36,025 nucleotides of DNA from Actinomycetota bacterium (GTDB taxonomy: Bacteria; Actinomycetota; Thermoleophilia; Gaiellales; F1-60-MAGs149). Both the position numbers and the translations under genes were made by a program. Each line of letters starts with the position of its first letter. The stretch's first letter is position 1. This document shows, one piece after another, positions 1,628 through 24,900 of the stretch. The stretch is from NCBI GenBank assembly GCA_009885805.1, contig VFJZ01000097.1, positions 1 to 36,025 on the forward strand, in the 5' to 3' direction. Under the pieces are notes generated by a model, which ran no database searches, had not been told where the DNA came from, and worked only from the letters and a program-made list of their open reading frames with translations.

Positions 1628-1795
1628 GGCGCCGCCATCGTCGGCGGTCTGCCCTCCCTGAGCGACGCCGCTCCGGGCGTCCGCCATCATCACGAACGCT
1701 ATGACGGGTCGGGCTATCCGGATGCCCTGACCGGCGAGCGGAACCGGGCGAGGAGGGCGACCGCCGTCGCTCAGCTGGCCGAGAACCAGAGGTAG
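1628..1795 (+). pseudogene. HD-GYP phosphodiesterase middle fragment with intact HHE-GYP motif
   Basis: On the plus strand the frame starting at 1628 reads GAAIVGGLPSLSDAAPGV and then RHHHERYDGSGYPDALTGER, which is the core HD-GYP signature (HHExxDGxGYP). Similarity fades after about 1735 and the frame ends at TAG 1793-1795, inside the 3' end of pelG on the other strand. The N-terminal HD motif is missing upstream; the sequence before 1628 instead encodes the C-terminal HD-GYP fragment in the opposite orientation. The two pieces abut within about 6 nt at 1622-1628. With a cyclase on one side and a c-di-GMP-type operon on the other, a lost phosphodiesterase partner is plausible. Confidence 0.62.
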
Positions 1796-3345
1796 TCCAG
1801 CCGACGGCGCTGGTGGCGCCAGACGGCGCACATGCCAACGGCGAAGACGACGCCGCCGGCCAGTAGCCCGAACGCGGCGTTCTCGGGGGCACTGCCGGAG
1901 CGGGCGGCGATCCCGACGACGAGATCGCACGCTACGGCCACGACTCCTACCGCTACGAGCGGCCACGGTCGCGCCAGCAACTGATAGGCACTGCCGACGC
2001 CGAGCGCGACGACGAAGCAGCCGTAGGCGATGAGGGCGATGCCGAGGGCGTCATGGGCGCGGCCGTCCTCGACGAGGTGTCCGGCTCCGAGTGGGAGCCA
2101 ACCGGGCCAGCGGGCGACCGTCAGCCACAGGCCGAGCGCGATCACGGCGTAGATGACGGCGACGCCGAAGACGTATCGGGACATGACGCGTGCGGCGCGG
2201 TGTCGTTCCTCCCTCGCCTCGTCGGGGTCCCGCCGCCGCGATGCAGCCTCGAGAAGCTCGCCGAAGCGAACGAGCACATGCTCGAGCGCCGGTAGCGCCA
2301 GTACGAGTGGTACGAGGGCGATCTGCAGCGCCGCCTCGTAGGCCGGGTGAAACGCGACCGGGTCGCCGCCGAGCCACGCCACGAGGCGGTCGGTGAAGAT
2401 GAGCGCGAAGTACACGAGCCCCCAGGCCGCGTACCCGCCGACCGACAGCGGCAGTAGCGCGAGTGGCAGCGCGCGACGGGCAGGAGACGCGTTGCGCGTC
2501 CGCCGGCGGAGCACGATGACGACGACGCCGACCAGCACGCAATCGGCGGCGAAGAGCCCGCCGGCGTGGACGAGCAATGGCGACAGCCCCGCGCGGAGGC
2601 CGCCGGCGACCACGAGCGTCGGCAGCAGAATCGCCAGTGCTGCGAACGTCGAGCGGCGGACGGCATAGAGCGCGGCGTTCGCGATCCACATCGTCGGCTG
2701 CAGCGCAAGATAGATGCAGAAGGCGGCCGTGGCCGGTCCTGCGTGGCCGACGGCGGCGGCGGCGATCGCCACTGCGGTTGCGAGCATCGCGCTGGAAACG
2801 GCGGCCAGGCCCAGGGAGCGCAGCGTCGCTCTCCGCAGCGCTCGCAGATCCTTCTGGTACCGGTAGTAGTAGAGCCGATGTGTGAGCGCCTGGCTGGCCG
2901 GCCCGGTCGCTATCAGGCTGACGACGAGCGCGAGCCCGATCGCCGTCTGCTCGTCGATCGTCAGGCCCCGCGAGCCCCACAGCGAGACGTGCAGCAGGGC
3001 GAGCGCGAGCCCCTGCACGAGCATCGGCAGCGAGTAGGCAAGCCCTCGGCCGTAGCGCCGGGCGAGCTTCTTCCAGCCGGGTGTACCGACTCGCGCGGGC
3101 CGGGACGCCGCGGGATCCGGCGATGCGTCGTGCAGTTGGAGGCAGCGCGCATGCACCAGCCGGCCGAGCTGGAAGACGTCGGTACAGCCGGGCGCGATGC
3201 GACCGGCGTCGACGTCGCGGATGCCGTCCGTCTCGAGCGCGGCGACCGTCGCGCGCTCGTGGAGAGGTCGTCCGAGCGTCGCCAGTACCCGCTCGGCCGC
3301 TCCGTCGACGTCGTCGACGGCGGCGTATGACTCCGCCGTGGTCAT
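1771..3345 (-). CDS. pelG: PelG-like exopolysaccharide membrane transporter subunit
   Basis: The 524-residue polytopic membrane protein has about 12 hydrophobic segments. It is recognisable as PelG by the first TM region (RGLAYSLPMLVQGLALALLH), the segment GPASQALTHRLYYYRYQKDL, and its position straight after pelF. PelG belongs to the MOP flippase-like superfamily and works with the PelF glycosyltransferase at the cytoplasmic membrane in Pel polysaccharide synthesis and export. At 524 aa it is longer than the roughly 456 aa of the Pseudomonas protein; an N-terminal cytosolic stretch of about 100 residues accounts for much of this. ATG 3345-3343 overlaps the pelF TGA by the usual ATGA, so the two are translationally coupled. 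It is the last gene of the operon and its 3' end overlaps an HD-GYP remnant on the opposite strand. Confidence 0.8.
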   Translation of the reverse strand: MTTAESYAAVDDVDGAAERVLATLGRPLHERATVAALETDGIRDVDAGRIAPGCTDVFQLGRLVHARCLQLHDASPDPAASRPARVGTPGWKKLARRYGRGLAYSLPMLVQGLALALLHVSLWGSRGLTIDEQTAIGLALVVSLIATGPASQALTHRLYYYRYQKDLRALRRATLRSLGLAAVSSAMLATAVAIAAAAVGHAGPATAAFCIYLALQPTMWIANAALYAVRRSTFAALAILLPTLVVAGGLRAGLSPLLVHAGGLFAADCVLVGVVVIVLRRRTRNASPARRALPLALLPLSVGGYAAWGLVYFALIFTDRLVAWLGGDPVAFHPAYEAALQIALVPLVLALPALEHVLVRFGELLEAASRRRDPDEAREERHRAARVMSRYVFGVAVIYAVIALGLWLTVARWPGWLPLGAGHLVEDGRAHDALGIALIAYGCFVVALGVGSAYQLLARPWPLVAVGVVAVACDLVVGIAARSGSAPENAAFGLLAGGVVFAVGMCAVWRHQRRRLDYLWFSAS

Positions 3346-4847
3346 GCCGCCAGGGGCTCTGAGACGGTTGCGAGCAACGGTGTCGGCACGGCGGTCGTGA
3401 GCCGGTCGTACAGGGCGTCGTAGCGTTCGACCACCAACGAGGAGCGGAACCGGGCGAGCACGCGCTCCCGGCCGCGGCGGCCGAGCTGCGCCCGGTTCTG
3501 CGGGTCGGCAAGCAGCGTGACGCAGCTACGGCCGAGTGCTACGGCGTCTCGTGGCGGCACCAGGATCCCCCAGCCGTCGAGCATCTCCGACACGCCGCCG
3601 ACATCGGTTGCGGCGACCGGCCGGGCACACGCCAGAGCTTCGAGGACGGTGTACGGGAACGCCTCGGACACGCTTGACAGGATCCCGATGTCGCCCTGGT
3701 TGAAGATCTCGGTCGGCTCCGGCGCGAGGCCTGCGAACACGAAGCTGTGCTCGAGTTGGAGTTCGGCGACGAGCGCGCGACACCGCTCCACGTAGGGCGG
3801 GTCGGCGGTCAGTGACCCGTACAGCAGGAACAGCACATCGGGAATGGTCTCCCGGGTCACGGCGGCCGCGCGGATCATCGTCTCGATGTCCTTGAGCGGG
3901 AACACGCGGGCCGCTGCGACGACGGTCGGACGGTTGTAGCCGGGGCTCGTCCTGGGCTTGTCGCGCGGCACGAACGCGTCGACATCGACGCCGTTGACGA
4001 TCGGCAGGAGCTTGTCGTCGCTAGCCCCGAGGCGGCGCTCCCAGCGGGTGTTCCACGCACAGACCGGGGAGATCACGTCGGCGTGTGCGTAGGTCAGCGC
4101 TGCCGTCAGCTCCGCCAGCGCGAGGAGGAAGCGACGCTGGGTCGCCGGCAACCGCGTCGTGGAGACGGCGATGTAGCGCTCGCGAAGATAGACGCCGTGC
4201 TCGGTGACGAGCAGCGGCGTTCCCCGCTCGACGCGCGCGACGATGCCGGGGAGGGCGGCGAGCCCCGCGAGCGTCGCGTGGCACAGGTCGACCTCCGGAA
4301 TCGGAACGGCGATCGGCATCAGCAGCGCCCGCAGCCAGCGAAGGCAGACGACGAGATCCTTGGCCCGGGCCCCGCGGGCCCACGGTGCGACCGCCGCCTG
4401 CTGGCGGAACGCGTCCCACGCCGCCCTGCTGGTCAGCGCGGCGACGAAATCGTGCTCGAGAAAGAATCGATGGAGCTCGACCAGCCGCCGTCCTGCGCGG
4501 AGCGGGTCAGCCTCGGGCGCTGCGAGGTCGTCGAGCAGGGCGGCGAAGAGCCGGCCGAACGTCGCCTCGACGTCGCCTCGTACGCTCGAGCGCCGGCGCA
4601 TCAGGTCGCGGGCGCCGTCTGCCGGCAGTCCCCACTCGAACGGATGCTCGACGCCCCAGAGCGGCAGCTGCCGCACCGTGACGTTGGGCGGAAGGTCGTA
4701 GAGTTGACGCGCCGAGACGTCGCCGGTGACGGCGAGCACCGTGAAGCGCACGTCTGGCAGGCCGCGGACGATCTGGTTGCACCAGGTGCTGACGCCGCCG
4801 TCGACGAAAGGATACGTGCCCTCCGTCAGCAGCAGGACGTGCCGCAC
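3342..4847 (-). CDS. pelF: PelF-family GT4 glycosyltransferase
   Basis: The 501-residue glycosyltransferase carries the N-terminal PelF signature (DUF3492): HVLLLTEGTYPFVDGGVSTW at residues 3-22, then the mid-domain box TEHGVYLRERYIAVS. The C-terminal GT4 domain has the E-x7-E nucleotide-sugar motif at E395-E403 (EAFPYTVLE). In the known Pel system PelF is the cytoplasmic UDP-sugar-dependent polymerising enzyme that works with PelG. Length matches the family (about 507 aa in Pseudomonas). The reading frame is open much further upstream, but homology begins exactly at GTG 4847, which I take as the start. It overlaps the preceding glycosyltransferase by 22 nt and pelG by 4 nt. No pelA, pelB, pelD or pelE is present in the window. 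Confidence 0.88.
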   Translation of the reverse strand: MRHVLLLTEGTYPFVDGGVSTWCNQIVRGLPDVRFTVLAVTGDVSARQLYDLPPNVTVRQLPLWGVEHPFEWGLPADGARDLMRRRSSVRGDVEATFGRLFAALLDDLAAPEADPLRAGRRLVELHRFFLEHDFVAALTSRAAWDAFRQQAAVAPWARGARAKDLVVCLRWLRALLMPIAVPIPEVDLCHATLAGLAALPGIVARVERGTPLLVTEHGVYLRERYIAVSTTRLPATQRRFLLALAELTAALTYAHADVISPVCAWNTRWERRLGASDDKLLPIVNGVDVDAFVPRDKPRTSPGYNRPTVVAAARVFPLKDIETMIRAAAVTRETIPDVLFLLYGSLTADPPYVERCRALVAELQLEHSFVFAGLAPEPTEIFNQGDIGILSSVSEAFPYTVLEALACARPVAATDVGGVSEMLDGWGILVPPRDAVALGRSCVTLLADPQNRAQLGRRGRERVLARFRSSLVVERYDALYDRLTTAVPTPLLATVSEPLAA

Positions 4848-5971
4848 GAGACTCCGAGCTGCGAGTAGAGAGCTGCATACGCCGCGGCCGTGTCGGCCGC
4901 CGTCCACCGGGCAGCACGGGTGCGGCCCGCGGCTGCCAGTGCGTCGGCATGCGTCGCGTCGTCGAGGATCGCGATGATGCCCGCGGCGAGAGCTTCGACA
5001 TCCCGGGGGGCGACGATCACGCCGGCATCTCCGAGCGTGTCGCGAACGCCGCCGACGTCGGGCGCCACGCACGGCACGCCGTGCGCCATCGCCTCGAGCA
5101 GGACCAGCGGCATCCCCTCGGTCTCGGACGCCATCGCGAGGCACGCCAGCCTCGGATACCAGAGCTCCGGACGGCTCGCCCCGACAAACCGAACGGCGCC
5201 GCGCAGGCCAGGCTCGGCGGCGAGCCGCCGGAGGCGGCGCAGGTAGGCGGTCGAGGCCTCGGCCGGTCCGATCACGACCAGTCGTGCGTCCGGCCTGGAG
5301 GAGCGGACGACGCGCATCGCGCGAAGGAGACGGGGCAGGCCCTTGACGGGCGCGATCCGTCCGACGAAGCCGACCAGCGGCTCGGCGGCCGCCGCGACCG
5401 TCGCGGTCTGCGGGGCGCCGTTCGGGATCACGACCATCCGTCCCGCCGGCGCTCCGGCTGCGACGTGGCTTCTGGCGACGGTGTCGCTGACGGCACCGAT
5501 CAGATCGGCCGCCGCGTAGCCGCGCCGTTCGCGCGCGGCAAAGCCCGTGGGTTTGTCGTTCCCCTTGCCCTGGTCGTGGTCGTCGTCGTCTTCCCAGTCG
5601 TCGTCCCCCTTGTCGCTGTGATCATCGTCATCGCCCTTCCCCCCGCCGCCGCCGCCATGTGACGAATCGAGGCCGAACGCCGCGACACCCTCCGGGCGCC
5701 AGGCGTCGCTCATGGCGTGGCACGTCAGCAGCAGCGGGCGGCCCGTGGCCCGGACGGCGCGGCCCGCCCGCGCCGCATCGGCGGCGGTCAGCGCGTGATA
5801 GACGCGAGCCGCCGGCAGGTCGCCGCCCGACGGCGCGGTGGCGAACCTGAGGGCCGGAAGCTGGACGGCAAGGTCGGTCGCCCACCGGCTGACACCGCCG
5901 ATCGTCGTGGCATCGATGCCGTTCGCCAGCAGGCACACGTCAAGGTCACGCGGCAAGCGCTGCAAGGCCAT
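4826..5971 (-). CDS. GT4 glycosyltransferase, PelF paralogue with a Gly/Asp-rich insertion
   Basis: The 381-residue GT-B fold enzyme begins much like PelF (DVCLLANGIDATTIGGVSRW, residues 11-30). Its GT4 domain has GFVGRIAPVKGLPRLLRA and an E-x7-E motif at E285-E293 (EGMPLVLLE). It probably transfers a sugar in the same exopolysaccharide pathway; donor and acceptor cannot be read from sequence. Between about residues 103 and 140 sits a low-complexity insertion: a run of six glycines, then mainly Asp with His, Lys and one Trp. ATG 5971 immediately follows GGGAGG, while TTG 5965 is better spaced from it, so the start is uncertain by two codons. The gene overlaps the STAS gene upstream by 26 nt and pelF downstream by 22 nt. 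Confidence 0.82.
   Translation of the reverse strand: MALQRLPRDLDVCLLANGIDATTIGGVSRWATDLAVQLPALRFATAPSGGDLPAARVYHALTAADAARAGRAVRATGRPLLLTCHAMSDAWRPEGVAAFGLDSSHGGGGGGKGDDDDHSDKGDDDWEDDDDHDQGKGNDKPTGFAARERRGYAAADLIGAVSDTVARSHVAAGAPAGRMVVIPNGAPQTATVAAAAEPLVGFVGRIAPVKGLPRLLRAMRVVRSSRPDARLVVIGPAEASTAYLRRLRRLAAEPGLRGAVRFVGASRPELWYPRLACLAMASETEGMPLVLLEAMAHGVPCVAPDVGGVRDTLGDAGVIVAPRDVEALAAGIIAILDDATHADALAAAGRTRAARWTAADTAAAYAALYSQLGVSCGTSCC
5552..5665 (-). other. Low-complexity acidic insertion coding segment
   Basis: This part of the glycosyltransferase gene encodes roughly 38 residues of poly-Gly followed by Asp-rich sequence (motifs GDDDDHSD, GDDDWEDDDDHD). On the plus strand it appears as repeated GTC/GTCGTC triplets around 5565-5640. 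It keeps the reading frame, and conserved GT4 sequence resumes directly afterwards (GFAARERRGYAAADLIGAVS). Confidence 0.85.
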
Positions 5972-6284
5972 CCTCCCGGTCCGCGACGAGCGTGAAGAAG
6001 CTCTCGGTGCGAGTGAGCGCGAAGATCTGCTGGGCACTTCCGCGCGGTGACACGATCGCGAGACGTCCGCTCATCCGATCCGACTCGCGCTGCAGGCCGA
6101 TCAGCACGCCGAGGCCCGAGGAGTCGATGAACTCGACGTCGCTCATGTCGAGCACGAGCGTGCCGCCGCTTGCGGCGAGGGCCGCGGCCCCCTGATCCTT
6201 CAGGTCCGGGGCCGAGCGCAGATCGATCCGGCCGCTGATCACCGCGACGTGAGCCCCGTCAAGCGTGCGCAGGTCGATGTTCAA
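5946..6284 (-). CDS. STAS-domain anti-anti-sigma factor (RsbV/SpoIIAA type)
   Basis: The 112-residue single STAS domain protein starts NIDLRTLDGAHVAVISGRID and carries the conserved phospho-site loop EFIDSSGLGVLIGL with Ser55/Ser56. Unphosphorylated proteins of this family bind RsbW-type kinases and release the kinase's partner, usually a sigma factor. The start is TTG 6284: it overlaps the TGA of the HD-GYP gene as TTGA and has GAGGAGG (6289-6295, read on the minus strand) 4 nt upstream. An ATG-only reading would place the start inside the glycosyltransferase region or far upstream without homology. With the RsbW-like protein and the PP2C phosphatase in the same operon it completes a partner-switching module. 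No sigma factor gene lies in the window. Confidence 0.87.
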   Translation of the reverse strand: MNIDLRTLDGAHVAVISGRIDLRSAPDLKDQGAAALAASGGTLVLDMSDVEFIDSSGLGVLIGLQRESDRMSGRLAIVSPRGSAQQIFALTRTESFFTLVADREDGLAALAA

Positions 6285-7807
6285 AGGTCCTCCTCGAGAA
6301 GGGCAACTAACGTATCGGCACAGGCCGGGTCGAGTTGAGTTCCGCGCCGCGCGCGCACCTCTCCGAGCACCTGCTGGGGCGTCATGCCCCCGGCCGGATC
6401 GAGCATCTCGGCGTAGAACTCGGCCGCGGCGAGAATGCGGGCGCCGAGAGGGATCGCCTCGCCCACCAGGCCGCTCGGAAATCCGAAGCCGTCCCACCAC
6501 TCGTGGTGCGCGCGAATCAACGGCGCAACGTCGGCCGCCCCGGGGACGAGTGAGGCCATCTCCGCGCCCAGCGCTGGATGCGCGAACTCGGCCGCGAGCG
6601 GCTCCTCGGCGGTGGCTGCCAGCAGGCCGGCGTCGTGCACCAGCGCCGCGCTCGCGACGAGGTCGCAGAACTGCTCGTCCGCACCCAGATCGGCCGCGAT
6701 CGCGCGAGCGGTGCCCGCCACCAGCCGGTGATGCCCCTGCGACGCCGGTGAGCGCGCGTCGAGAGCCTGACAGAGCCCGCGCAACGCGTCGATGTGACGA
6801 TCAGCGGTCGCGCGCGCGGCGTGGGAGCTCTCGAGCACGAGAGCCGCCTGTTCGATGAGCGTTTCGAGCAGCCTGGTGCAGTCGGCGGCGAGCTCCCCGT
6901 CGTCGGTGGCGATCAGGCCGAAGATGAACACGGGCTCCTCGGCCCCGGCGGGGCCGCTGACGGCGAGCAGGCCGCCGACGCCGATGTCGTTGAGGCGCCG
7001 TGCGTCCTCGATCACCAGCAGGCCGGGCAGGCCGGGGACCGAGGCCAGAATGCCACGGCCGGGCGTGACGTCCAGCTCGCCGAACCCCTCTGGCAGGTCG
7101 CGCGACGCGACGATTTCGAACGTCGAGTCATTCCGAACGGCGACGAATCCGCCGCGACTACGGCTGCTCGTGGTCGCCAGGTCGATCAGCAGCTGCAGGG
7201 ACCGGCCGGCGTCGATCGTGCTCCCGATTGCGCGACGGCCGCGGTCGACCTCGCCTCGCAGGGCATCGAGTTCCGACTCGAGTGAGGCGGTTCGCAGCGC
7301 TTCGCGGAAGGCGCCATCGAGGAGCGCGGAGAGGCCGACGAGTCGCGCCCGTTCCCGCGTTCCGAGGCGGTCTCGACGGAGCGGTCCGACCGCCACCATG
7401 CCGTCCGACAGCGGTAGCGAGGCGAACGGGCGTCCGAACAGGCGCATGACGCCGACCACCGGCTCGACCGTCAGTTCCAGCGGCAGGCCGGAGACCGGGC
7501 TGCCGTCGTCGCTCTCGTCCACGAGCGACCGGCCCTCGCCGGACGGGGCGGCGAGGTACTCGTCGCCGTACTTTCGAGCCAGTAGGAGCCGCCCGCGGTC
7601 GTCTCGACGCCAGATCGCCGCCGTCGAGCACTCGACGAGGCCGGCGAGTTCGGCAAGCAGGGCGCTCAGGATGTCGCCCTCGCGCGCCATCGCGCCGAAC
7701 AGCCGGGTCGCGACGTTACCGGGGTCGATGCGAGGGATCCGTCTGACGCCGGGGACGACGTTCCCGGCGTCGGAGATCGTGATCGCCTCGGGCAGTACCG
7801 TACTCAT
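6281..7807 (-). CDS. GAF-GAF-HD-GYP signalling protein with altered catalytic motifs
   Basis: The 508-residue protein has two GAF-like regions (about residues 30-170 and 200-330) and a C-terminal HD-GYP domain (about 335-508). HD-GYP enzymes hydrolyse c-di-GMP with a bi- or trinuclear metal centre. Metal residues are recognisable (GHHRLVA, VHDAGLL, HHEWWDG). However, the usual HDxGK is HDAGL, losing the lysine, and GYP is replaced by GFP. Activity is therefore uncertain; it may bind c-di-GMP without fast turnover. ATG 7807 overlaps the RsbW gene stop (ATGA), and its own stop overlaps the STAS start (TTGA), placing it in the middle of the partner-switching module. The two GAF domains may sense a small ligand or redox state (inference). 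Confidence 0.85.
   Translation of the reverse strand: MSTVLPEAITISDAGNVVPGVRRIPRIDPGNVATRLFGAMAREGDILSALLAELAGLVECSTAAIWRRDDRGRLLLARKYGDEYLAAPSGEGRSLVDESDDGSPVSGLPLELTVEPVVGVMRLFGRPFASLPLSDGMVAVGPLRRDRLGTRERARLVGLSALLDGAFREALRTASLESELDALRGEVDRGRRAIGSTIDAGRSLQLLIDLATTSSRSRGGFVAVRNDSTFEIVASRDLPEGFGELDVTPGRGILASVPGLPGLLVIEDARRLNDIGVGGLLAVSGPAGAEEPVFIFGLIATDDGELAADCTRLLETLIEQAALVLESSHAARATADRHIDALRGLCQALDARSPASQGHHRLVAGTARAIAADLGADEQFCDLVASAALVHDAGLLAATAEEPLAAEFAHPALGAEMASLVPGAADVAPLIRAHHEWWDGFGFPSGLVGEAIPLGARILAAAEFYAEMLDPAGGMTPQQVLGEVRARRGTQLDPACADTLVALLEEDL
6289..6295 (-). promoter_or_regulatory. Shine-Dalgarno deciding the TTG start of the STAS gene
   Basis: The minus-strand sequence GAGGAGG lies 4 nt before TTG 6284-6282. 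It supports TTG as the true start of the anti-anti-sigma factor gene and lies within the 3' end of the HD-GYP coding sequence. Confidence 0.7.
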
Positions 7808-8208
7808 GGGGCCGCCGACAGTGATCGGGTCATCAGCAGCCGGTTCTCCCCCTCGACGCGTCGCCATTCGAGGCGGTCCATGCACCGATCGATCAGGGCC
7901 AGGCCACGGCCGCCCACCGCTGTCGCGTCTGGCATCGCGTACGACACCGCAGATACATCGACTGGCTGCCCGGCGTCGCACACGGCCGCGCTGAAGCGCG
8001 CCCGGCCGAGCCGGAGGACGAGACGGAACGACCCGCCAGGCTGCTCGTAGGCGTGCTCCACGACGTTCGCGCAGGCCTCCATGACCGCGATCTCGCAGGC
8101 ACCGGCCACCGCCGGGTCGACGAGGGCCAGCAGGTCGCGCACGGCGAGAGCTGCGTCGCGGGCACCGTCGGGATCGGCCGGGAGCGTCAGTTCGCGCTCC
8201 GTCCTCAC
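7804..8208 (-). CDS. RsbW-like serine kinase / anti-sigma regulatory factor
   Basis: The 134-residue GHKL (HATPase_c) protein has the N box around E44-N48 with HAYE after it (EACANVVEHAYE), the G1 box DAGQPVD (78-84) and the G2 box GGRGLALID (99-107). Family members phosphorylate a STAS partner and bind a sigma factor or other target when the STAS protein is phosphorylated. The STAS partner is two genes downstream and the opposing phosphatase directly upstream. ATG 8208 overlaps the phosphatase stop by ATGA. As no sigma factor is encoded here, its released partner is unknown; it could be a sigma factor elsewhere or a protein of this operon. Confidence 0.87.
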   Translation of the reverse strand: MRTERELTLPADPDGARDAALAVRDLLALVDPAVAGACEIAVMEACANVVEHAYEQPGGSFRLVLRLGRARFSAAVCDAGQPVDVSAVSYAMPDATAVGGRGLALIDRCMDRLEWRRVEGENRLLMTRSLSAAP

Positions 8209-9284
8209 TGCAGGCGCTCCAGGAGTACCATGGTGCGGTCGTCCGTGTCGGGTGCCGCGGCGACCAGAGTGGCTGGAGACACGCGGCGATTGATCGCGGC
8301 AACGAGCGCGGCGCGGCAGTCCGCCGGCTCACCGTCGCCCTCCACCAGCCCGTCGCTGAACAGAGCCAGGCGATCGCCGCGCTCGAGGCGAACCGTGCCA
8401 AGCGGGTAGTCGGCAACGGGAAGGAGGCCAAGCGGCTGGCCGCCACCCGGGACCGGCCGCTCGACGTTCTCGGCCGACAGCAGCGCGCAGTGGCCGTGAC
8501 CCGCATCGGCGTAGAGAAGATCGCCCGTCTCGACGTCGAGGCGGGCGAGGAACGCCGTCAGGAACCGGCCGGCGCGGCCGAGCGGATCGAACAGCACCTC
8601 ATTGGTCGCGCGCAGTGCCGCCGCCGGGTCATCACCACGCAACGACGCAGCGCGCACCGCCGTCTGCGCCATCGCCGCCAGCAGTGCCGCCCCCACACCC
8701 TTGCCGGACACATCGGCGAGCAGCACGAGCAGGGAGCGGCCGCCGTCCAGCGCGAGCAGATCGAAGCAGTCGCCACCGACCTGGCTGGCCGGCAGAAACC
8801 CCGTCTCGATCCGCCAACCGGGGAGCGAGGGCGTGTCGGGAACGAGCGCGGACTGAATCGCTGCCGCCGCGCGCACCTCGCTGTCCAGGTGGTGTTCGCG
8901 GTCATGGCGGGCGCGGCGCTCATGGCCGCGCCGGTGTGCGTCGACGACGGCTGCGGCGATTCCCTCCGCGCCGCACGGGCGGCGCAGGACATCGTCGACC
9001 CCGGATCGCAGCGCCTCGCGCTCGTCCTCGTCGCTGTCGCTGTCCGTCAGCATCACCACGCCGGAGCACACGCCGCTCGTGCGGAGGACTTCTACGAGTC
9101 GCCGGCCGGACAGGCCGGGCAGGTCGTCCTCGACGACCAGGACGTCCGGCTCCGAGCGGCGGATGTGCTCCACGGCCGACGAACCGTCGGCCGTCGCGTC
9201 GACGCTGTAGCCTTTCTCCAGGAGGATGCGCATCACCCACGCTCGGCTCAGGGTCGAATCGTCAACCACGAGGACGTTGGCCAT
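8205..9284 (-). CDS. Receiver-PP2C phosphatase (RsbU/SpoIIE type) with atypical receiver
   Basis: In this 359-residue protein, residues 1-115 form a response-regulator receiver domain (VLVVDDS with acidic pair D8-D9; T80). Residues about 150-359 form a PP2C-type Ser/Thr phosphatase: GGDCFDLLALDGG, LADVSGKGVGAALLAAM, DRLALFSDGLVEGDG and TDDRTMVLLE hold the metal-binding aspartates. Such enzymes dephosphorylate the STAS anti-anti-sigma factor. The normal phosphoacceptor Asp is Glu here (E52 in VVEDDLPG) and the conserved Lys is Arg (R102 in LRRP), so regulation by ordinary phosphorylation is doubtful. The frame continues upstream, but homology starts at ATG 9284; GTG 9293 is the nearest alternative. 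It is the first gene of the operon, 102 bp from the divergent pilT-like gene. Confidence 0.88.
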   Translation of the reverse strand: MANVLVVDDSTLSRAWVMRILLEKGYSVDATADGSSAVEHIRRSEPDVLVVEDDLPGLSGRRLVEVLRTSGVCSGVVMLTDSDSDEDEREALRSGVDDVLRRPCGAEGIAAAVVDAHRRGHERRARHDREHHLDSEVRAAAAIQSALVPDTPSLPGWRIETGFLPASQVGGDCFDLLALDGGRSLLVLLADVSGKGVGAALLAAMAQTAVRAASLRGDDPAAALRATNEVLFDPLGRAGRFLTAFLARLDVETGDLLYADAGHGHCALLSAENVERPVPGGGQPLGLLPVADYPLGTVRLERGDRLALFSDGLVEGDGEPADCRAALVAAINRRVSPATLVAAAPDTDDRTMVLLERLQ

Positions 9285-9386: not shown

Positions 9387-10469
9387 ATGTTCCTGGAGGA
9401 GATCCTTCGCGCTGCTGTCATGCGCGGCGGCAGCGACATCCATCTGAAGGTGCCAGCGCCGCCAGCGCTGCGTATCGATGGTCGGCTCGAGCGTCTCGAC
9501 GAGTTTGCGACGATGAAGCCTGCCGTGGCGGAGTCTGTTCTCGCCGTGATGCTGGCGTCGCTCCCGCACTCGTCGAAGCAGAACGAGTTCGACCGGACGG
9601 GCGATGTGGACTTCGCCTATGCGCATCCGGGCCTCGGACGATTTCGCGTGAATGCGTTCCGGCAGCGCGGCTCCGTCTCGATGGTCATCCGCGTGGTGCC
9701 GTTCGGCGTTCCGCGTGCCGACGAACTCGGGATCCCGGCTGGCGTCCTCTCGCTTCTCGACCAGCAAGACGGTCTCATCGTCCTGACCGGCGGCGCCGGA
9801 TCCGGTGTCACGACGACGCTCGCGGCACTCGTCGATCATCTCAACGGCAGCGTGGTCCAGAACATCCTCACCTTCGAGGATCCGATCGAGGTCCTGCACG
9901 CCGACCGCCTCTCCACCGTCTGCCAGCGGGAGATCGGCCTCGACACACCGTCGTTTGCGCAGGGCCTCGATCGCGCCCTCCGCCACGACTCCGACGTGAT
10001 CGCGGTCGGTGCCCTTCCCGACCTCGCAAGCGTTGAGGCCACCCTCGCGCTCGCACAGAGCGGCGCTCTGGTCCTGGTCGCGCAACGGAGTCCCGACGCT
10101 GCCGGTGCGATCCGGCGCCTGACCGAGATCTACCCCGACGATCGGCAGCGGCAGGCACGTTCCGAACTTGCCCGCGCGATTCGCGGCGTGGTCGTGCAGA
10201 AGCTGGTTCCGCGAGCCGACGGCGCCGGCCGATGTCTCGCGTCGGAGGTACTGCCGGCCACGCCCGCCGTCTGCCAGGCCATCGAAGACGGCGTCCCGGC
10301 CGCGGCGATCGAGGCCCACATCGATTCGCAGGCGAACCCGGGAGCGGTGTCGTTGAACGAGTCGCTCGCAGAGCTCGTCGTTCGCGGAACCGTGACGCTC
10401 GAGTCGGCGCTCGCTGCTGCTCGCGACCCCGGCGGACTCGAGCGCCTCATCGGGCCGTCCTCGTCGTAG
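9387..10469 (+). CDS. PilT-family protein with degenerate ATPase motifs
   Basis: The 360-residue protein is collinear with type IV pilus retraction ATPases: N-terminal GGSDIHLKVPAPPALRIDGRL, RFRVNAFRQRGSVSMVIR, the Asp box TFEDPIEVLH (162-171), and REIGLDTPSFAQGLDRALR. The nucleotide site is altered. Walker A reads GGAGSGVTT (V141 instead of Lys), Walker B DSDVIAVGALPD (A209 instead of Glu), and the His box ends AQRSPDA (R234 instead of His). ATP hydrolysis is thus unlikely, while the fold and hexamer interface may persist. It could be a regulatory or structural partner of an active PilT/PilB elsewhere. The start is ATG 9387 (GTG 9375 also in frame) with no clear ribosome site. It is divergent from the partner-switching/exopolysaccharide operon and may share its promoter region. 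Confidence 0.85.
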   Translation: MFLEEILRAAVMRGGSDIHLKVPAPPALRIDGRLERLDEFATMKPAVAESVLAVMLASLPHSSKQNEFDRTGDVDFAYAHPGLGRFRVNAFRQRGSVSMVIRVVPFGVPRADELGIPAGVLSLLDQQDGLIVLTGGAGSGVTTTLAALVDHLNGSVVQNILTFEDPIEVLHADRLSTVCQREIGLDTPSFAQGLDRALRHDSDVIAVGALPDLASVEATLALAQSGALVLVAQRSPDAAGAIRRLTEIYPDDRQRQARSELARAIRGVVVQKLVPRADGAGRCLASEVLPATPAVCQAIEDGVPAAAIEAHIDSQANPGAVSLNESLAELVVRGTVTLESALAAARDPGGLERLIGPSSS

Positions 10470-18120: not shown

Positions 18121-21100
18121 GTGCCTCGACAATCGCGTGTCCGCCGTCGCCTGCTCGCAGCCGGGCTGCTGGCGATGTCCCTGCTCGCGCCCGCGACTGC
18201 AGCCGCCGACGATCTGGTGCTGCTGGAGAACGATCCGGCGGTCGCCCTCCAGGGCACGCTGACCTTCCAGCGCGTCTACATCAACTCGACGGTCCGACTG
18301 ACCGGCGACCTGGTGTTGAACGCGGACTCCGTCTACATCGGTCCGCGCGCGGCGATCCAGCCGTGCTTCGTGCCCGATCCGATGAACCCGGTCGACGGCG
18401 GTGATCCCAACGGCTGCACCGACGGCCGCTCGCTGACGATCCGCACCACCGGCGAGGTCCTGATCTCGCCCGCGGTCGACCTCCGCGGCGGCACCGGTCC
18501 GGCGCGGCGTGGCGGCGCACTGACGATCACGGGATCCTCGATCACGCTGTCCGCGGCCGTCACGACGAGCGGGTTCGGCGGGATGCCGTCCGGGATCGTG
18601 AACCTCGTCACCACCGGCCTGCTGCGGACGAGCACGATCGTCGCGCCCGGCACGACGGTGAACCTGAACGGCGGCCGCGGCGTCACGATGGCCGGCGACC
18701 TCGACGTGCGCCCGAGCGGCGCGGCCACGGCCTCCTCGGCGTCTGGGGCGGTGTCGCTGCGCGGGTTTGCACTCGCCGATGGGGCCGCGGGAGCCCCCGG
18801 TATCCCCGGCGGGCCGGGCGGTACGGTGAACGTCAGCGGCGGTGACGTCCGCGTCGCCGGTGCCAGCGCCAACGGCGGCGGCGCTCAGGACCTGACGGGC
18901 GGCAACGGCGGCACGGTCCGCGTCACGGCGCGCGGCCGCGGCGCGGTCGGGTCGCTGAGCGCCAACGGCGGTTCGAGCGCCCAGGGAGCCGGCGGCAACG
19001 CCGGCGTTGTCGAGCTTCTCGGCACGCGTCGGGCGACCGCCACCGGGCTGTCGGCGTCCGGCGCACAGGCCCCCGCCGGTGGCGGTAACGGCGGCACGGT
19101 CCGCGCCCGTGGGTCGTCGATCACCCTGTCGAGCCTCGGTGCAGGTGGCGGTGGCGGAACGAACGCGGCCCTGAATCCATCGGGTGGCGCCGGCGGCATC
19201 GTCGACATCGTGAGCGCCGGTCGCGTCCACCTCTCCGGCTTCGGCGTGGCCGGCGGCAACGGCAGTGGTGGCGGCAACGGTGGCGGCGGCGGGTCGGCGT
19301 CGGTGAGCGGCGGCCGCCTTGTCGTCTCCGGCACGGTCGACGTCTCCGGCGGCACCGCGAACGCCGGTAGCGGCGGACCGGCGGGCACGGCGACGCTCCG
19401 CAGCGCAACCACGCTCCGCATCAGTGGCGGCGTCGACGCTGCAGGTTCCGCGGGCGGCGCCCTGGCGGGGAAGGGTGGCACGATCCTGCTCGACGCGAAG
19501 GGTCTGAGCTACGCCGGCGGGACGCTCACCGTGTCAGGGGCCCAGGGCGGGCTGGCCGGCTCGAACGCCGGCACCGTCACCGTGCGGAGTCCTGCGATCG
19601 ACCTCGCATCCGCGCCCGCCGCGGCCGGTGGCAGCGGCGGCTCGCCGGGAGCGCCCGGTGGCGCCGGCGGCACGGTCGACATCGTCACGAGCGGCGACCT
19701 GACGCTCGGAGGGTTCGCGGTCGCCGGCGGTAACGGCAACGCGGCCGGCAGCGGCGGCAGCGGCGGCGTCGCGAGGATCGCCGCCGCCGCGCTGCGACTC
19801 TGGGGCGGCATCGACGCCACGGGCGGCTCGACCGGGAACGGCGGCAACGGCGGCGCGAGCGGTTCGATCGCCGTCACGACCGTCGGCGCGATGACGATCG
19901 GCGGGACGCTGGACGCCAGCGGCAGCGGCGCCGCGCAGGGCGGCGCCTCGGCCGGCGGCCCCGTCACGGTGACAGCCGGAGGCGACGCCTGGCTCGGCGG
20001 CATCAGCACGGCGGGTGCCAGTGGGGCGGGCGGCGGTTCGGCTGCCGGCGCGATCACGGTCCGCGCCGCCGCACTCGACATCGGCGGCGTAACGTCCAAC
20101 GGCGGGTCCGGTCAGGGAGGATCCGACTCGAACGGCGGCGCCGGCGCGAACGTCGTGATCATCGTCACCGGCGAGTTGACCTCGCCCAACGGGTTCGCGC
20201 CTGCCGGCGGCAACGGCGCGGGCAGCGGATCCGGCGGCCCCGGGGGTATCGTCGCGGTGACGGCCGGGGACATCCTGGTCGGCGCGATCGACGTCACTGG
20301 TGGCAGCGCCGGTCAGGGCAACGGCGGCGGCGCCGGCCGCGCGACGTTGATCTCCTTCGGCGACCTCCACGTGCTGAACGGCGTTGATGCCTCCGGCACC
20401 GGCGGAGGGGCGAATGGCGCCGCGTCGGACGGTGGTGCGCTGACGCTCCGGGCGTCGCAGTCGCTCGTCGCCGGCTCGATCACGCTGGGGGGCGGCTCAT
20501 CGCCCGTCCGCGGGGGGCACGGCGCACGCCTCGACCTGATCGCCGACGACGCCGTCGTGGGCACCGTCACGGCCAGCGGCGGCAACGCTACGCAGGCGCT
20601 GGCGAACGGCCCCGGCGGCAACGGCGGGACGATCGTCGGTCGTCTCACGGGCCCGCTCGATGTCACCTCGTTGACGACGGCGGGTGGCAGCGGCGCAGGA
20701 GCCGGTCGCGGCGGTAGCGGCGGCCCGATCGACATCACCGCAGCCGCGATCGACGCCGGCTCGGTCATCGCGACCGCCGGCGCCGGCGGCGGCGCCGGTG
20801 CGCAGGGCGGAGCCGTGAAACTCGCCGCGACTGCCGATCTCAATGTCTCGTCCGCCGTCGCGACGAATGGCGCCGGTGGTGGCGACGGCGCAGCCGGCCA
20901 GCCCGGGTTCGCCGGTGGCTCCGCGGGGGCGATCCTGCTGCGGGCGACCGACGGGGTCCTGACCCTGCCGGGGCCTGTGACCGCGCTCGGCGCCGTGGGC
21001 GGCGATCCCGGCGCCGGGTTCCCGACCGGTGCCCCGGGTGGCACCGGCGGACGGGTCGACATCGTCGCCCGCCGTGTCGGCGCGCTCCAGTCGATCGCGA

Positions 21101-21855
21101 CGACGGGTGGCGACGGCTCGGGCCCCGAAGACACGGCCGGGGCCGGCGGCGATGGCGGACCCGTGTTCGTCTGGTCGGACGACGGTGTCCTCGACGGCTC
21201 CCGCTTCGTCACGAGCGGCGGCGGCGTCGGCATCCCCGGCGGGCTCGAGGGCCCGCAGACCCAGCAGTCGTCTCCGACCGATGTCGTGGCGAAGAAGAAG
21301 ACCGTCGCGTTCGCGCTCCGCAGCCCGGATGCCGCCCGCGTCGGCCTGCTCGCCGTCAACGGTCCGCAGGCCGGTCGCGTGACGACGACCGCCGCCGTCG
21401 CCGGTCCCATCAAGCTGCCGAAGCGCCTCATGTGTGTCGGCGTCCGCTACGCGGTCGTGGCGCTCCAGCCCGCGCTCGGTTGGGTCTCGAACGGGGCGGG
21501 CGTCGTCAAGACTGCCGCTGGCAAGGGCAAGGGTTGCAAGAAGCCGCCGGTGTTGAAGGCCGGGAAGAAGAAGGTCGCCGTCTCGCTCGCCGCAGTCGCC
21601 AGCGGCGGGTTTCACGTCGTCATTCCGGCCAGTGCCAGGGGGCTCGGTATCGCCACTGCCCAGATCGTCGCCGGCAAGACCGTCCTCGCGGCCGGCGAGC
21701 CGCTTGCCGTGCTGCGCTCGGGGAAGTTCAAGCTTGATCTGGTGCTGCCGCCCGCCCTTCGCCGGCCCGGCACCTACAACGTTCGTGTCGTCGGGAAGGC
21801 CATCGTGGGGAAGAAGACGCGGATGGTCACGCTGACGCTCGAGCTGCGCGCGTGA
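18121..21855 (+). CDS. Giant exported Gly-rich repeat protein, beta-helix-like
   Basis: The protein of about 1244 residues starts with a signal peptide (RRRLLAAGLLAMSLLAPATA, then AADD). A non-repetitive head (about 30-130; LTGDLVLNADSVYIGPRAAI) follows, then about 900 residues of imperfect units roughly 40-55 residues long. Each unit has a Gly/Asn/Ser-rich turn (for example GGNGGT) and two or three short beta strands such as VDIVTSGDLTLGGFAVAGGN. Such periodicity suggests a long parallel beta-solenoid. The last 180 residues lose the repeats and become Lys-rich beta sequence (AGKKKVAVSLAAVASGGF). It is probably a secreted or surface structural protein; no sortase or TM anchor is visible. GTG 18121 fits the signal peptide; GTG 18082 or ATG 18085 are in frame. 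I do not recognise a named family. Confidence 0.85.
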   Translation: MPRQSRVRRRLLAAGLLAMSLLAPATAAADDLVLLENDPAVALQGTLTFQRVYINSTVRLTGDLVLNADSVYIGPRAAIQPCFVPDPMNPVDGGDPNGCTDGRSLTIRTTGEVLISPAVDLRGGTGPARRGGALTITGSSITLSAAVTTSGFGGMPSGIVNLVTTGLLRTSTIVAPGTTVNLNGGRGVTMAGDLDVRPSGAATASSASGAVSLRGFALADGAAGAPGIPGGPGGTVNVSGGDVRVAGASANGGGAQDLTGGNGGTVRVTARGRGAVGSLSANGGSSAQGAGGNAGVVELLGTRRATATGLSASGAQAPAGGGNGGTVRARGSSITLSSLGAGGGGGTNAALNPSGGAGGIVDIVSAGRVHLSGFGVAGGNGSGGGNGGGGGSASVSGGRLVVSGTVDVSGGTANAGSGGPAGTATLRSATTLRISGGVDAAGSAGGALAGKGGTILLDAKGLSYAGGTLTVSGAQGGLAGSNAGTVTVRSPAIDLASAPAAAGGSGGSPGAPGGAGGTVDIVTSGDLTLGGFAVAGGNGNAAGSGGSGGVARIAAAALRLWGGIDATGGSTGNGGNGGASGSIAVTTVGAMTIGGTLDASGSGAAQGGASAGGPVTVTAGGDAWLGGISTAGASGAGGGSAAGAITVRAAALDIGGVTSNGGSGQGGSDSNGGAGANVVIIVTGELTSPNGFAPAGGNGAGSGSGGPGGIVAVTAGDILVGAIDVTGGSAGQGNGGGAGRATLISFGDLHVLNGVDASGTGGGANGAASDGGALTLRASQSLVAGSITLGGGSSPVRGGHGARLDLIADDAVVGTVTASGGNATQALANGPGGNGGTIVGRLTGPLDVTSLTTAGGSGAGAGRGGSGGPIDITAAAIDAGSVIATAGAGGGAGAQGGAVKLAATADLNVSSAVATNGAGGGDGAAGQPGFAGGSAGAILLRATDGVLTLPGPVTALGAVGGDPGAGFPTGAPGGTGGRVDIVARRVGALQSIATTGGDGSGPEDTAGAGGDGGPVFVWSDDGVLDGSRFVTSGGGVGIPGGLEGPQTQQSSPTDVVAKKKTVAFALRSPDAARVGLLAVNGPQAGRVTTTAAVAGPIKLPKRLMCVGVRYAVVALQPALGWVSNGAGVVKTAAGKGKGCKKPPVLKAGKKKVAVSLAAVASGGFHVVIPASARGLGIATAQIVAGKTVLAAGEPLAVLRSGKFKLDLVLPPALRRPGTYNVRVVGKAIVGKKTRMVTLTLELRA

Positions 21856-21865
21856 ACAGCGCGCA
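21845..21865 (+). terminator. Possible hairpin spanning the stop codon of the Gly-rich protein gene
   Basis: TGCGCGC (21845-21851) pairs with GCGCGCA (21859-21865) around a 7-nt loop containing the TGA. It may end or attenuate the transcript before the DUF1800 operon. Confidence 0.3.
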
Positions 21866-21907
21866 TCGGTACCAGCAACCGACCAGGAGTGACAAGGGGG
21901 GATCTCC

Positions 21908-23371
21908 GTGAGTGAGGTGCATGCACCGAGAAGGAAGAAGAAGCGCAAGAAGCAACCGCGGCTGACCGAGGCCATGGTTGACCGGCTCTTCTGGCGAGCT
22001 GGATTCGGGCCGACGAGCGCTGACCGCGCGAGATGGCGAGGTAAGACCGTTCTGTCGCTTGTCGACTGGTTCCTCTCCGCGCGGCCGACGCTGAAGGGCG
22101 CCGCACCGACCAGGGATGGCAACCCGCTCGACCCGACGGCCGAGGACGTCGACCTGGTGCTCGAGTGGGTCGACCGCATGATCCGTTCGACGAATCCGTT
22201 CCCCGAGCGCATGGCGTTCTTCTGGCATCGCCACTTCGCGAACGGTCGAGACGGCGGTCCGTCCCAGCAGATGATGCGGAAGCAGATCGCCCTGTTCGGG
22301 CAGTTCTCCGACTTCGGTCGTAATCCGAACGCGAGCTTCCGCGCACTGGCGAACGAGGTCACAATCGATCCGTCGATGCTCCGCTACCTGACGGGCGAGG
22401 ACAACGTCCGGGGCAGTTCGAACGAGAACTACGCGCGGGAGATCATGGAGCTGTTCGTGCTCGGCACGCGCGACGACAAGGGCAGGTTGATCTACAGCGA
22501 GGGCGACGTCAAGCACCTCGCCAAGGCCTTCACCGGCTGGTCGATCGACGAGGTCGACCCCGACAACCCGCGTGGTGTCTTCGGGTCGAATCGCTGGTCG
22601 AACGGGCTCAAGAGTCCGTTTGGAATCAACGGCAACTTCAAGGCGTTCAAGCCGGGCGACCCGATGTACCGGGCCGCCGACGACGTCGTGGAACTGGTGC
22701 TGCGGCGCCCGGCGCGCGTCGGCGATGCCGGTGACGCCGGACGCAAGCCGTACGAGACCCACGCCCGCTTCCTGATCCGCAAGCTGTGGCACGAGTTCAT
22801 CGTGACGCCGCCGGACAGGGCGACGCTGGACGGGTTGGTCAAGACGTACCTGACGCCGCGTGGTGGCAGGCCCGGACTCCTGCTCCGCCCGGTGCTGCGC
22901 AAGATCCTGTCGCACAAGCGGATGTTCGAGTCGCTTGCAGAGCCGAACATGGTGAAGCCGCCAGTGGTCTACCTCGTCGGTGTCTATCGGGCACTGGATG
23001 CGAGGATCAGCGACCAGGTCGCGTACGACTTCCTCGAGCAGATGGGGCAGCTGCCCTACAACCCGCCGAACGTATCGGGCTGGGAGGGCGGCCTGTCATG
23101 GCTCAACACGAACACGGTGCTCAGTCGCTTTGCGCTCGCCGGTGAGCTGATGGACCAGACGGCGCCGAAGGACAGGTCCGGTGAGACCGCCCCGCAGGCC
23201 TTCGACCGCGCGTTGCGCGAGGTCGGTCGACCGTGGCTCGCAAAGGGTTCCCGTGCGGCCGTGAAGGACTACGCGGCGCGTGCCCCCTCCGGACGCTCCG
23301 ACCTCAGAATCGAGCGGCAGCGGATGATCCGCGCGCTCATCCTTGCTGGCCCCGACGCTCAGGTGATGTGA
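21908..23371 (+). CDS. DUF1800 family protein
   Basis: The 487-residue protein matches the DUF1800 family: LFWRAGFGPTSADRARW, MAFFWHRHFAN, NENYAREIMELFVLGT, KHLAKAFTGWS and PYNPPNVSGWEGG are its usual boxes. Its role is not established, but it is nearly always encoded next to a DUF1501 protein, as here. The N-terminus is strongly basic (PRRKKKRKKQPR) with no signal peptide. GTG 21908 has a good Shine-Dalgarno (AAGGGGGG ending about 6 nt upstream). Its TGA shares one base with the ATG of the DUF1501 gene. Confidence 0.9.
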   Translation: MSEVHAPRRKKKRKKQPRLTEAMVDRLFWRAGFGPTSADRARWRGKTVLSLVDWFLSARPTLKGAAPTRDGNPLDPTAEDVDLVLEWVDRMIRSTNPFPERMAFFWHRHFANGRDGGPSQQMMRKQIALFGQFSDFGRNPNASFRALANEVTIDPSMLRYLTGEDNVRGSSNENYAREIMELFVLGTRDDKGRLIYSEGDVKHLAKAFTGWSIDEVDPDNPRGVFGSNRWSNGLKSPFGINGNFKAFKPGDPMYRAADDVVELVLRRPARVGDAGDAGRKPYETHARFLIRKLWHEFIVTPPDRATLDGLVKTYLTPRGGRPGLLLRPVLRKILSHKRMFESLAEPNMVKPPVVYLVGVYRALDARISDQVAYDFLEQMGQLPYNPPNVSGWEGGLSWLNTNTVLSRFALAGELMDQTAPKDRSGETAPQAFDRALREVGRPWLAKGSRAAVKDYAARAPSGRSDLRIERQRMIRALILAGPDAQVM

Positions 23372-24900
23372 TGGCGACGACTGATGGATACGAGGCGCTC
23401 AAGTGCGCCGACTGCGCGCGTTCCGACTCCGCTGTGACCGACCTGCGGCCGAGCCAACAACTGGCGATCCCGGTCGAGGCGATCGAGTCCGGGGCCGGTG
23501 AGGTTGCCGGTTCGCGTCGGCTGACCCGACGGCGGGCACTGCAGAGCGGCATCGCGGGGATGGCGGCGATCTACGCCTCCACGCAGCTCGACTGGAACGT
23601 GATCTGGCGGGCGGCGGAGGCCGAGGCGGCCGAGAACCCCGGTGCCCGCAAGCTGGTGCTGATCTACCTGCAGGGTGGGGCCGACAGTCTCAACATGTTC
23701 GTGCCGCAACTCGACCCCCACTACAACGTCTACACGGGGCAACGGCCGACGATCGCCCGGCTCCGGGGGCCGTCGGTCAACCTGCAGCAGGTCGGCTCGA
23801 CACCGTTCAGCGGCGGCGCCGGGGCCCAGATCGGCTTTGCGAACCCACTGCTGTCAGGGGTGAACGGCAACCAGTTGTACGGGATGAACGGGATGATCCC
23901 GGCCGGTGCCGGTGGTCTCGACACGCTGTTCGGTGATGGCTCCGGCGGCGTCGGCTCGGATCTTGCGGTCTTCCCGGCGGCCGACTACAACCCGGCGAAC
24001 CGGTCGCACTTCGACTCGCGGGACTACTGGTTCCAGGGGGCGCTGAAGAAGCAGACGACCGGTTGGATCGGTCGGTGGCTCGATGCCGAGGGCTCGCAGG
24101 AGAACCCGTTGCAGGCGATCTCTCTGGACTCCTCGCTGTCGAAGCAGATCCGCACGTCCCGTGCTCCGGTCTGTGCGCTCGACGGGTTGCAGGGAATCCA
24201 GTTCGACGTCCGAAACGTGACGACCGCCGCGAACAACGCGAACCTGCAGATCGAGAAGCTCGCGGCCGTCGCGGCCGCGAAGTCCAACGTCGCGCTGGCC
24301 CGTAGCCGGCAGTCGTTCGGTCTGACGACGTCGGTGTCGCGCAAGGTGAAGACGCTCGTGGCGCAGCCGTCCACGGCGCTCTACCCGAACTCGTTCCTCT
24401 CGAATCGGCTGCGTCTCGCGGCGCAGTTGCTCGCGGCGCCGCTCGGCACGCGGGTCGTGACGGTCGACTGGGGCAGTTTCGACAATCACGGTGACCAGGT
24501 GTCCTCGATGGATCCGCAGCTCGCCGTGCTCGGCTCCGCTCTCGCCGCCTTCCAGGCCGACCTCGCCGCTCGCGGTGTGGCGGATCAGGTGCTGACCGTG
24601 GTGTTCTCCGAGTTCGGCCGTCGCGTCGGGCAGAACGATTCCGACGGCACCGACCACGGTGCCGGCGGCCCGATGATGCTGATGGGTCCGCGCGTCAAGG
24701 GCGGGCTGGCGAGCCAGCCGTCAGATCTCGCCGCCCCGGACGACAACGGCGACCTGGTCGTCTCGACGGACTTCCGTCACGTCTACAAGGCGATCTTCCA
24801 GGAGTGGTTCGCGGCCGATCCGAGCCGCTACCTGCCCGACCTCCCCGCCGGCGCGATCAACCGCTTCGACGGGACGTCGACCATCCTCAAGGCGGCATGA
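23371..24900 (+). CDS. DUF1501 family protein with internal twin-arginine signal
   Basis: The 509-residue protein belongs to DUF1501, distantly related to sulfatase/alkaline phosphatase folds: KLVLIYLQGGADSLNMFVP, SRDYWFQGAL, VTVDWGSFDNHGDQ, VFSEFGRRVGQNDSDGTDHG and GGPMMLMGP. A twin-arginine motif (TRRRALQSG, about residues 51-59) followed by a short hydrophobic stretch suggests Tat export. Unusually, the motif is preceded by some 50 residues including a CxxC pair (KCADC). It pairs with the DUF1800 gene and overlaps the cupredoxin gene (ATGA). ATG 23371 is the start because the upstream open frame only shadows the DUF1800 gene. Confidence 0.9.
   Translation: MATTDGYEALKCADCARSDSAVTDLRPSQQLAIPVEAIESGAGEVAGSRRLTRRRALQSGIAGMAAIYASTQLDWNVIWRAAEAEAAENPGARKLVLIYLQGGADSLNMFVPQLDPHYNVYTGQRPTIARLRGPSVNLQQVGSTPFSGGAGAQIGFANPLLSGVNGNQLYGMNGMIPAGAGGLDTLFGDGSGGVGSDLAVFPAADYNPANRSHFDSRDYWFQGALKKQTTGWIGRWLDAEGSQENPLQAISLDSSLSKQIRTSRAPVCALDGLQGIQFDVRNVTTAANNANLQIEKLAAVAAAKSNVALARSRQSFGLTTSVSRKVKTLVAQPSTALYPNSFLSNRLRLAAQLLAAPLGTRVVTVDWGSFDNHGDQVSSMDPQLAVLGSALAAFQADLAARGVADQVLTVVFSEFGRRVGQNDSDGTDHGAGGPMMLMGPRVKGGLASQPSDLAAPDDNGDLVVSTDFRHVYKAIFQEWFAADPSRYLPDLPAGAINRFDGTSTILKAA

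Follow-up and report, generated by a model that had tools for sequence, protein, structure and literature searches.

A conserved actinomycetotal operon joins a partner switch and a degenerate HD-GYP protein to PelF- and PelG-type polysaccharide genes

What might a complete partner switch be doing in an operon whose other half resembles the core of a Pel exopolysaccharide system? The question is raised by a 36,025-nucleotide stretch of DNA (the window), which is one whole contig (VFJZ01000097.1, our G000:C93) of a draft Actinomycetota genome of 3.56 Mb that is 95% complete, and which has a G+C content of 71%. An earlier inspection of the letters, here called the sequence-only reading, described seven minus-strand genes that overlap at every junction, and it had both the coordinates and the order right. 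From position 9284 to 1771 the genes encode a receiver-PP2C phosphatase, an RsbW-like kinase, a GAF-HD-GYP protein, a STAS protein, a GT4 glycosyltransferase, PelF and PelG, with successive overlaps of 4, 4, 4, 26, 22 and 4 nucleotides. The same set of genes recurs well beyond this contig, and its recurrence suggests that the switch controls the making of a slime-like polysaccharide.

Had the gene order been confined to this genome, the sequence-only reading would have failed its own check. The set is, however, present in six other genomes, which brings the total to seven, spread over three orders of the class. One of these loci (L037) has the identical gene order and even shares a divergent pilT gene, and the other five (L009, L010, L038, L039 and L063) have the order HD-GYP, STAS, RsbW, GT4, PelF, PelG. 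A PP2C gene lies upstream in L009, L010, L039 and L063, with the receiver fused or separate in some, and none is adjacent in L038. Every module locus keeps the HD-GYP gene directly before the STAS gene and the order GT4-PelF-PelG. The claim that the signalling and polysaccharide genes belong together is thus borne out by their conservation as a unit.

PelG relatives are rare in the neighbourhood of the window's lineage, being present in 5 of 151 related genomes, the window's own included. In two other orders, 1 genome out of 42 and 3 out of 232 had a close PelF relative (E <= 1e-105), and of 396 genomes sampled across the phylum the window's own alone had one. Wherever a close PelF gene lies on a long enough contig, the signalling genes are also present; two further close copies (L008 and L011) are on contigs that end inside or at PelF and were counted neither way. 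At 13 less closely related PelF loci in this class, no PP2C, RsbW, STAS or HD-GYP gene and no second PelF-like glycosyltransferase lies nearby, and that second transferase is therefore confined to the module loci in this comparison.

For all seven genes, identity is higher within than between two clades, one made up of the window and L037 and the other of L009, L010, L038, L039 and L063, and the distance matrices of the genes correlate at 0.75-0.95. This split contradicts taxonomy, given that the window shares its order with L009 and L010 while L037 belongs to another order. Because all seven genes divide in the same way against taxonomy, the simplest reading is that the module was inherited as a unit, either by transfer or by ancient duplication of the whole set.

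The individual proteins were assigned to families with Pfam and NCBIfam profiles. The partner switch announced by the sequence-only reading is indeed complete, comprising a STAS protein with a phosphorylatable serine, a HATPase-type serine kinase and a PP2C phosphatase, as in Rsb and SpoIIA systems, and it is recognizable by its residues as well as by its families. The phosphatase (9284-8205; Response_reg 65 bits, SpoIIE 119 bits) is of the SpoIIE type and has all of the PP2C acids in GGDxxD, ADVSGKG, SDG and DDRT. Its receiver domain was correctly named but is degenerate, with Glu in place of the phospho-acceptor Asp and Arg in place of the switch Lys when aligned with 3eq2. In L037, too, the phospho-acceptor is Glu and the switch Lys is absent; both residues are kept where the receiver is a separate protein, as in L010 and L039. 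The RsbW/SpoIIAB-type kinase (8208-7804; HATPase_c_2 77 bits) has an intact N-box, EACANVVEHAY, when aligned with RsbW (6m36). The single-domain STAS protein (6284-5946, TTG start; STAS 60 bits, ant_ant_sig 64 bits) resembles RsbV and SpoIIAA, whose structures are among its closest solved relatives, and its phosphorylatable serine lies in FIDSSG.

The synthetic half of the operon contains two PelF-like transferases rather than one. The PelF-type protein (4847-3342, GTG start), built of DUF3492 (156 bits) and GT4 domains, scores 190 bits against the NCBIfam PelF model, for which the cut-off is 100. The upstream protein (5971-4826; Glycos_transf_1 107 bits), first labelled simply GT4, is a glycosyltransferase, and its score of 129 bits to the same PelF equivalog and its PelF-type N-terminus mark it more exactly as a second, shorter PelF-like paralogue whose N-terminal half is reduced. 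Both proteins have the E-x7-E motif. The shorter one carries a Gly/Asp-rich low-complexity insert, read directly from the sequence (5549-5656), and a Gly-rich stretch occupies the corresponding position in its L037 counterpart.

The transporter gene (3345-1771) encodes a PelG-type membrane protein whose profile score is low (31 bits) and just above the cut-off of 29, but its AlphaFold2 model (predicted local distance difference test score, pLDDT, 88.7) has the MOP/MATE/MurJ/WzxE fold. In the protein of the window, an additional N-terminal helical domain (model helices 13-74) matches no Pfam family. This domain, with a motif like AATLESxGxRDxDA, is conserved in PelG proteins across the class (L008-L011, L037-L052 and L063). 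Since PelG proteins outside the module have it too, the idea that it is a docking site peculiar to the module was dropped. The profile matches of the seven genes include no pelA, pelB, pelD or pelE, and the earlier statement that these are missing is accurate for the operon; genome-wide, PelB and PelE were not searched, and a PelD search gave no match, but its control was equally silent.

The HD-GYP protein (7807-6281; HD_5 76 bits) requires revision. Its description as GAF-GAF-HD-GYP is well founded for the HD-GYP domain (fold Z-scores 15-21) and for the second GAF domain (Pfam matches in L009 and L010; fold Z-score ~13), whereas the first GAF domain is weakly supported. Using residue numbers of PmGH, six of the eight HD-GYP metal ligands are retained (H189, H221, D222, H250, H276 and H277), D305 is replaced by Glu, and E185 is not conserved. 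The equivalents of the catalytic residues D183, K225 and D308 are lost from the module copies (K225, for example, is replaced by Leu or Met), as is the R314/K317 pair. Replacing D183, K225 or D308 of PmGH by alanine is as damaging as losing a metal ligand and leaves the enzyme inactive, while alanine at D305 and E185 reduces activity and alanine at R314 and K317 has little effect (PMC4159591). Hydrolysis of cyclic diguanylate (c-di-GMP) by the module protein is thus doubtful, because the equivalents of D183, K225 and D308 are gone, although the protein may still bind the nucleotide. An active phosphodiesterase, the c-di-GMP branch implied by the sequence-only reading, was demoted as a candidate after this residue mapping. 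Separately, remnants of a canonical HD-GYP C-terminus are found in the window at 1500-1744, between pelG and the neighbouring GGDEF gene. They are in two pieces on opposite strands, HHERYDGSGYP on the plus strand (1688-1744) and ADVYSAMTTDRVY on the minus strand (1610-1500), and so the remnant is broken and partly inverted.

We tentatively favour, at somewhat less than an even chance, the view that the operon specifies a self-contained exopolysaccharide synthase that is gated post-translationally, with a target inside the module, an output other than a SigB-type sigma factor, and the HD-GYP protein in the place of PelD. The STAS serine would be phosphorylated by the RsbW-type kinase and dephosphorylated by the PP2C phosphatase, whose activity a receiver or GAF input would tune. 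Unphosphorylated STAS protein, or the kinase that it frees or holds, might then bind a protein from the same operon and turn polymer synthesis on. The likeliest partner would be the degenerate GAF-HD-GYP protein, which is encoded adjacent to STAS, or else the complex of GT4, PelF and PelG. The degenerate HD-GYP protein itself would serve as a sensor or receptor, the position that PelD holds in known Pel systems. A bolder formulation, which we regard as unlikely, is that these operons define a conserved class of synthase in which PelD and PelE have given way to a serine-phosphorylation partner switch and an HD-GYP protein without catalytic activity, and in which STAS is the allosteric subunit that turns a sigma-independent, two-transferase PelF/PelG machine on and off.

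Several considerations weigh against a gated synthase of this kind. The genome has no recognizable polymer hydrolase or deacetylase genes by searches for GH114 and Spherulin4/Agd3-like proteins. Several RpoD-type sigma genes could serve as targets, and the Rsb network of Chlamydia trachomatis reportedly acts on the primary sigma factor. Gene distances within the second clade correlate poorly, and so co-inheritance of the seven genes is clear and tight co-evolution is not.

The alternative that survives best is a classical partner switch, in which the kinase would sequester a remote sigma factor, such as an RpoD-type paralogue, and the operon would be among the targets of that factor, giving feedback. 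We judge this to be doubtful, although it has a sound foundation in the established action of canonical RsbW/STAS/PP2C sets on sigma factors (PMC8256260). Seven genes of this genome match the SigB/F/G family model (TIGR02980) across its span, all under the cut-off. Six of them have an RpoD-type region 2, and the three that were typed all belong to the RpoD family. These sigma genes lie on contigs C91, C24, C31, C21, C54 and C78 of the same genome (L055-L061), and seven sigma-70 family genes, of which at least three are typed as RpoD-family, make RpoD-type paralogues numerous for a genome of 3.6 Mb. However, none of the seven module loci was seen to have an adjacent sigma gene, and the sigma genes have no STAS, RsbW or PP2C motifs closer than 1.5 kb. 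The cognate SigB/F/G-type sigma factor that characterizes Rsb and SpoIIA systems was thus found neither in the surroundings of the module nor among the genome matches, and a SigB-type factor was demoted as a target for lack of any match above the cut-off.

The kinase complement of the genome bears on the same point. Only the operon kinase matches HATPase_c_2 strongly, the others reaching 27-30 bits inside longer frames. A single strong RsbW-type kinase, combined with no SigB/F/G sigma factor over the cut-off, argues against a classical sigma output, and the remote sigma factor put forward by the sequence-only reading is weakened to that extent. In Streptomyces, a phosphodiesterase is described as an anti-sigma antagonist (PMC13232838), and this precedent for a link between c-di-GMP proteins and sigma circuits keeps the sigma alternative alive. 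Other STAS-fold proteins act on a non-sigma partner, as in the pairs SiaC-SiaD, HsbA-HsbD and BgrV-BgrR (PMC8457831), and the targets of SypA, the STAS protein of the syp polysaccharide locus, and of HmpV in the hmp polysaccharide locus are described as unknown (PMC8256260). The lack of a SigB/F/G match over the cut-off, together with these enzyme-binding STAS-fold proteins, favours a direct output within the module.

A second alternative, which we consider improbable, is a circuit like SiaABCD, in which STAS would set c-di-GMP levels through an active HD-GYP protein or through the GAF-GGDEF diguanylate cyclase encoded convergently at 22-1383 on the plus strand (GGDEF 111 bits), and c-di-GMP would in turn act on polymer synthesis. 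SiaC, HsbA and BgrV do regulate diguanylate cyclases (PMC8457831), the convergent cyclase has an intact GGDEF motif and RQHD I-site, and most of the HD-GYP metal ligands are retained. Against this stand the loss of three residues whose alanine mutants are inactive in PmGH, the position of the cyclase gene outside the operon and its absence beside the module in L010, L037 and L039, and an operon that has neither PelD nor another known c-di-GMP receptor. The last possibility, that the two halves are merely co-transcribed, the signalling genes serving unrelated functions and the glycosyltransferases making a constitutive polymer or glycan, has in its favour that the gene overlaps suggest co-transcription at most. 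It is very unlikely, because the genes stay together in different orders of the class, even where their internal arrangement has changed, and because the switch is found at none of the 13 other PelF loci.

The product of a gated PelF/PelG synthase is probably, or more cautiously plausibly, a Pel-like, galactosamine-type polymer, and this is the least certain step of our proposal. The uncertainty arises because the genome, although 95% complete, has no GH114 gene and, by sequence search, no Spherulin4/Agd3/GH114-like protein; the PelA deacetylase family was not searched by profile. Two relatives do have alpha-galactosaminidase-type genes next to the module, L037 a GH114 gene and L039 two Spherulin4 genes, an indirect hint of the partly deacetylated alpha-1,4 GalNAc polymer that is typical of Pel systems, and several of the 13 distant PelF loci adjoin GH114, Spherulin4 or Agd3-type genes. 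As a separate observation, PelF and PelG genes are clustered with an Agd3-like deacetylase, GH114 or Spherulin4 in L046, L050, L041, L039 and similar loci across the class, and such clusters are related to the galactosaminogalactan pathway of fungi.

A PilT-family ATPase (9387-10469, plus strand; pilT_fam 317 bits) diverges from the operon at a distance of 102 bp and is shared with L037 (tblastn 48%) and not with the loci of the second clade. Scans for promoters and terminators gave either nothing or matches at the level of chance. Further along (18175-24900), DUF1800 and DUF1501 genes follow the gene for a protein of 1226 aa that is apparently exported and matches no Pfam family.

Operons with only PelF and PelG are already known (PMC7112194), as are partner switches in polysaccharide loci (PMC8256260). 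The conserved union of a partner switch, PelF/PelG, a degenerate HD-GYP protein and a second PelF-like transferase was not found in the literature searched. Its value is that operon structure and shared inheritance link the switch to a few candidate targets, namely the HD-GYP protein, GT4, PelF and PelG, and given so few candidates the action of STAS on the polysaccharide machine could be tested by a handful of pairwise assays. If our proposal is true, a PelF/PelG machine can be run without the c-di-GMP receptor PelD.

Comparison with known systems places the operon between several of them. The SiaABCD, HsbA-HsbD and BgrV-BgrR systems also combine a phosphatase, a kinase and a STAS-fold protein, and unphosphorylated SiaC binds a c-di-GMP enzyme from its own operon (PMC8457831). 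The partner there is an active diguanylate cyclase, whereas the present operon encodes the polymer enzymes themselves along with a degenerate HD-GYP protein, and the GGDEF gene lies outside it. In Vibrio fischeri, the syp polysaccharide locus likewise encodes a STAS protein, SypA, and a serine kinase/phosphatase, SypE, although SypE is a single fused protein (PMC8256260), and the 18-gene syp locus serves another polysaccharide pathway (PMC4517449). The HmpUVW partner switch of Nostoc is tied to both polysaccharide and motility (PMC8256260), which recalls the PilT-family neighbour, but that neighbour is shared with L037 only. DvhD offers a precedent for an inactive HD-GYP receptor, having the fold minus the catalytic residues; it differs in having lost its metal ligands, which are mostly retained here, and in being a membrane receptor for an adhesin protease (PMC13090378). 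The nearest relatives in synthesis are the Gram-positive Pel operon pelDEA(DA)FG of Bacillus cereus (PMC7112168) and the operons with ‘only pelF and pelG’ (PMC7112194), in both of which, as here, PelF and PelG are neighbours in a monoderm-type set without PelB and PelC. Unlike the Gram-positive Pel operons, the operon described here contains no PelD, PelE or PelA and has a partner switch and a degenerate HD-GYP protein instead, along with a second PelF-like glycosyltransferase and a PelG that bears an N-terminal helical domain.

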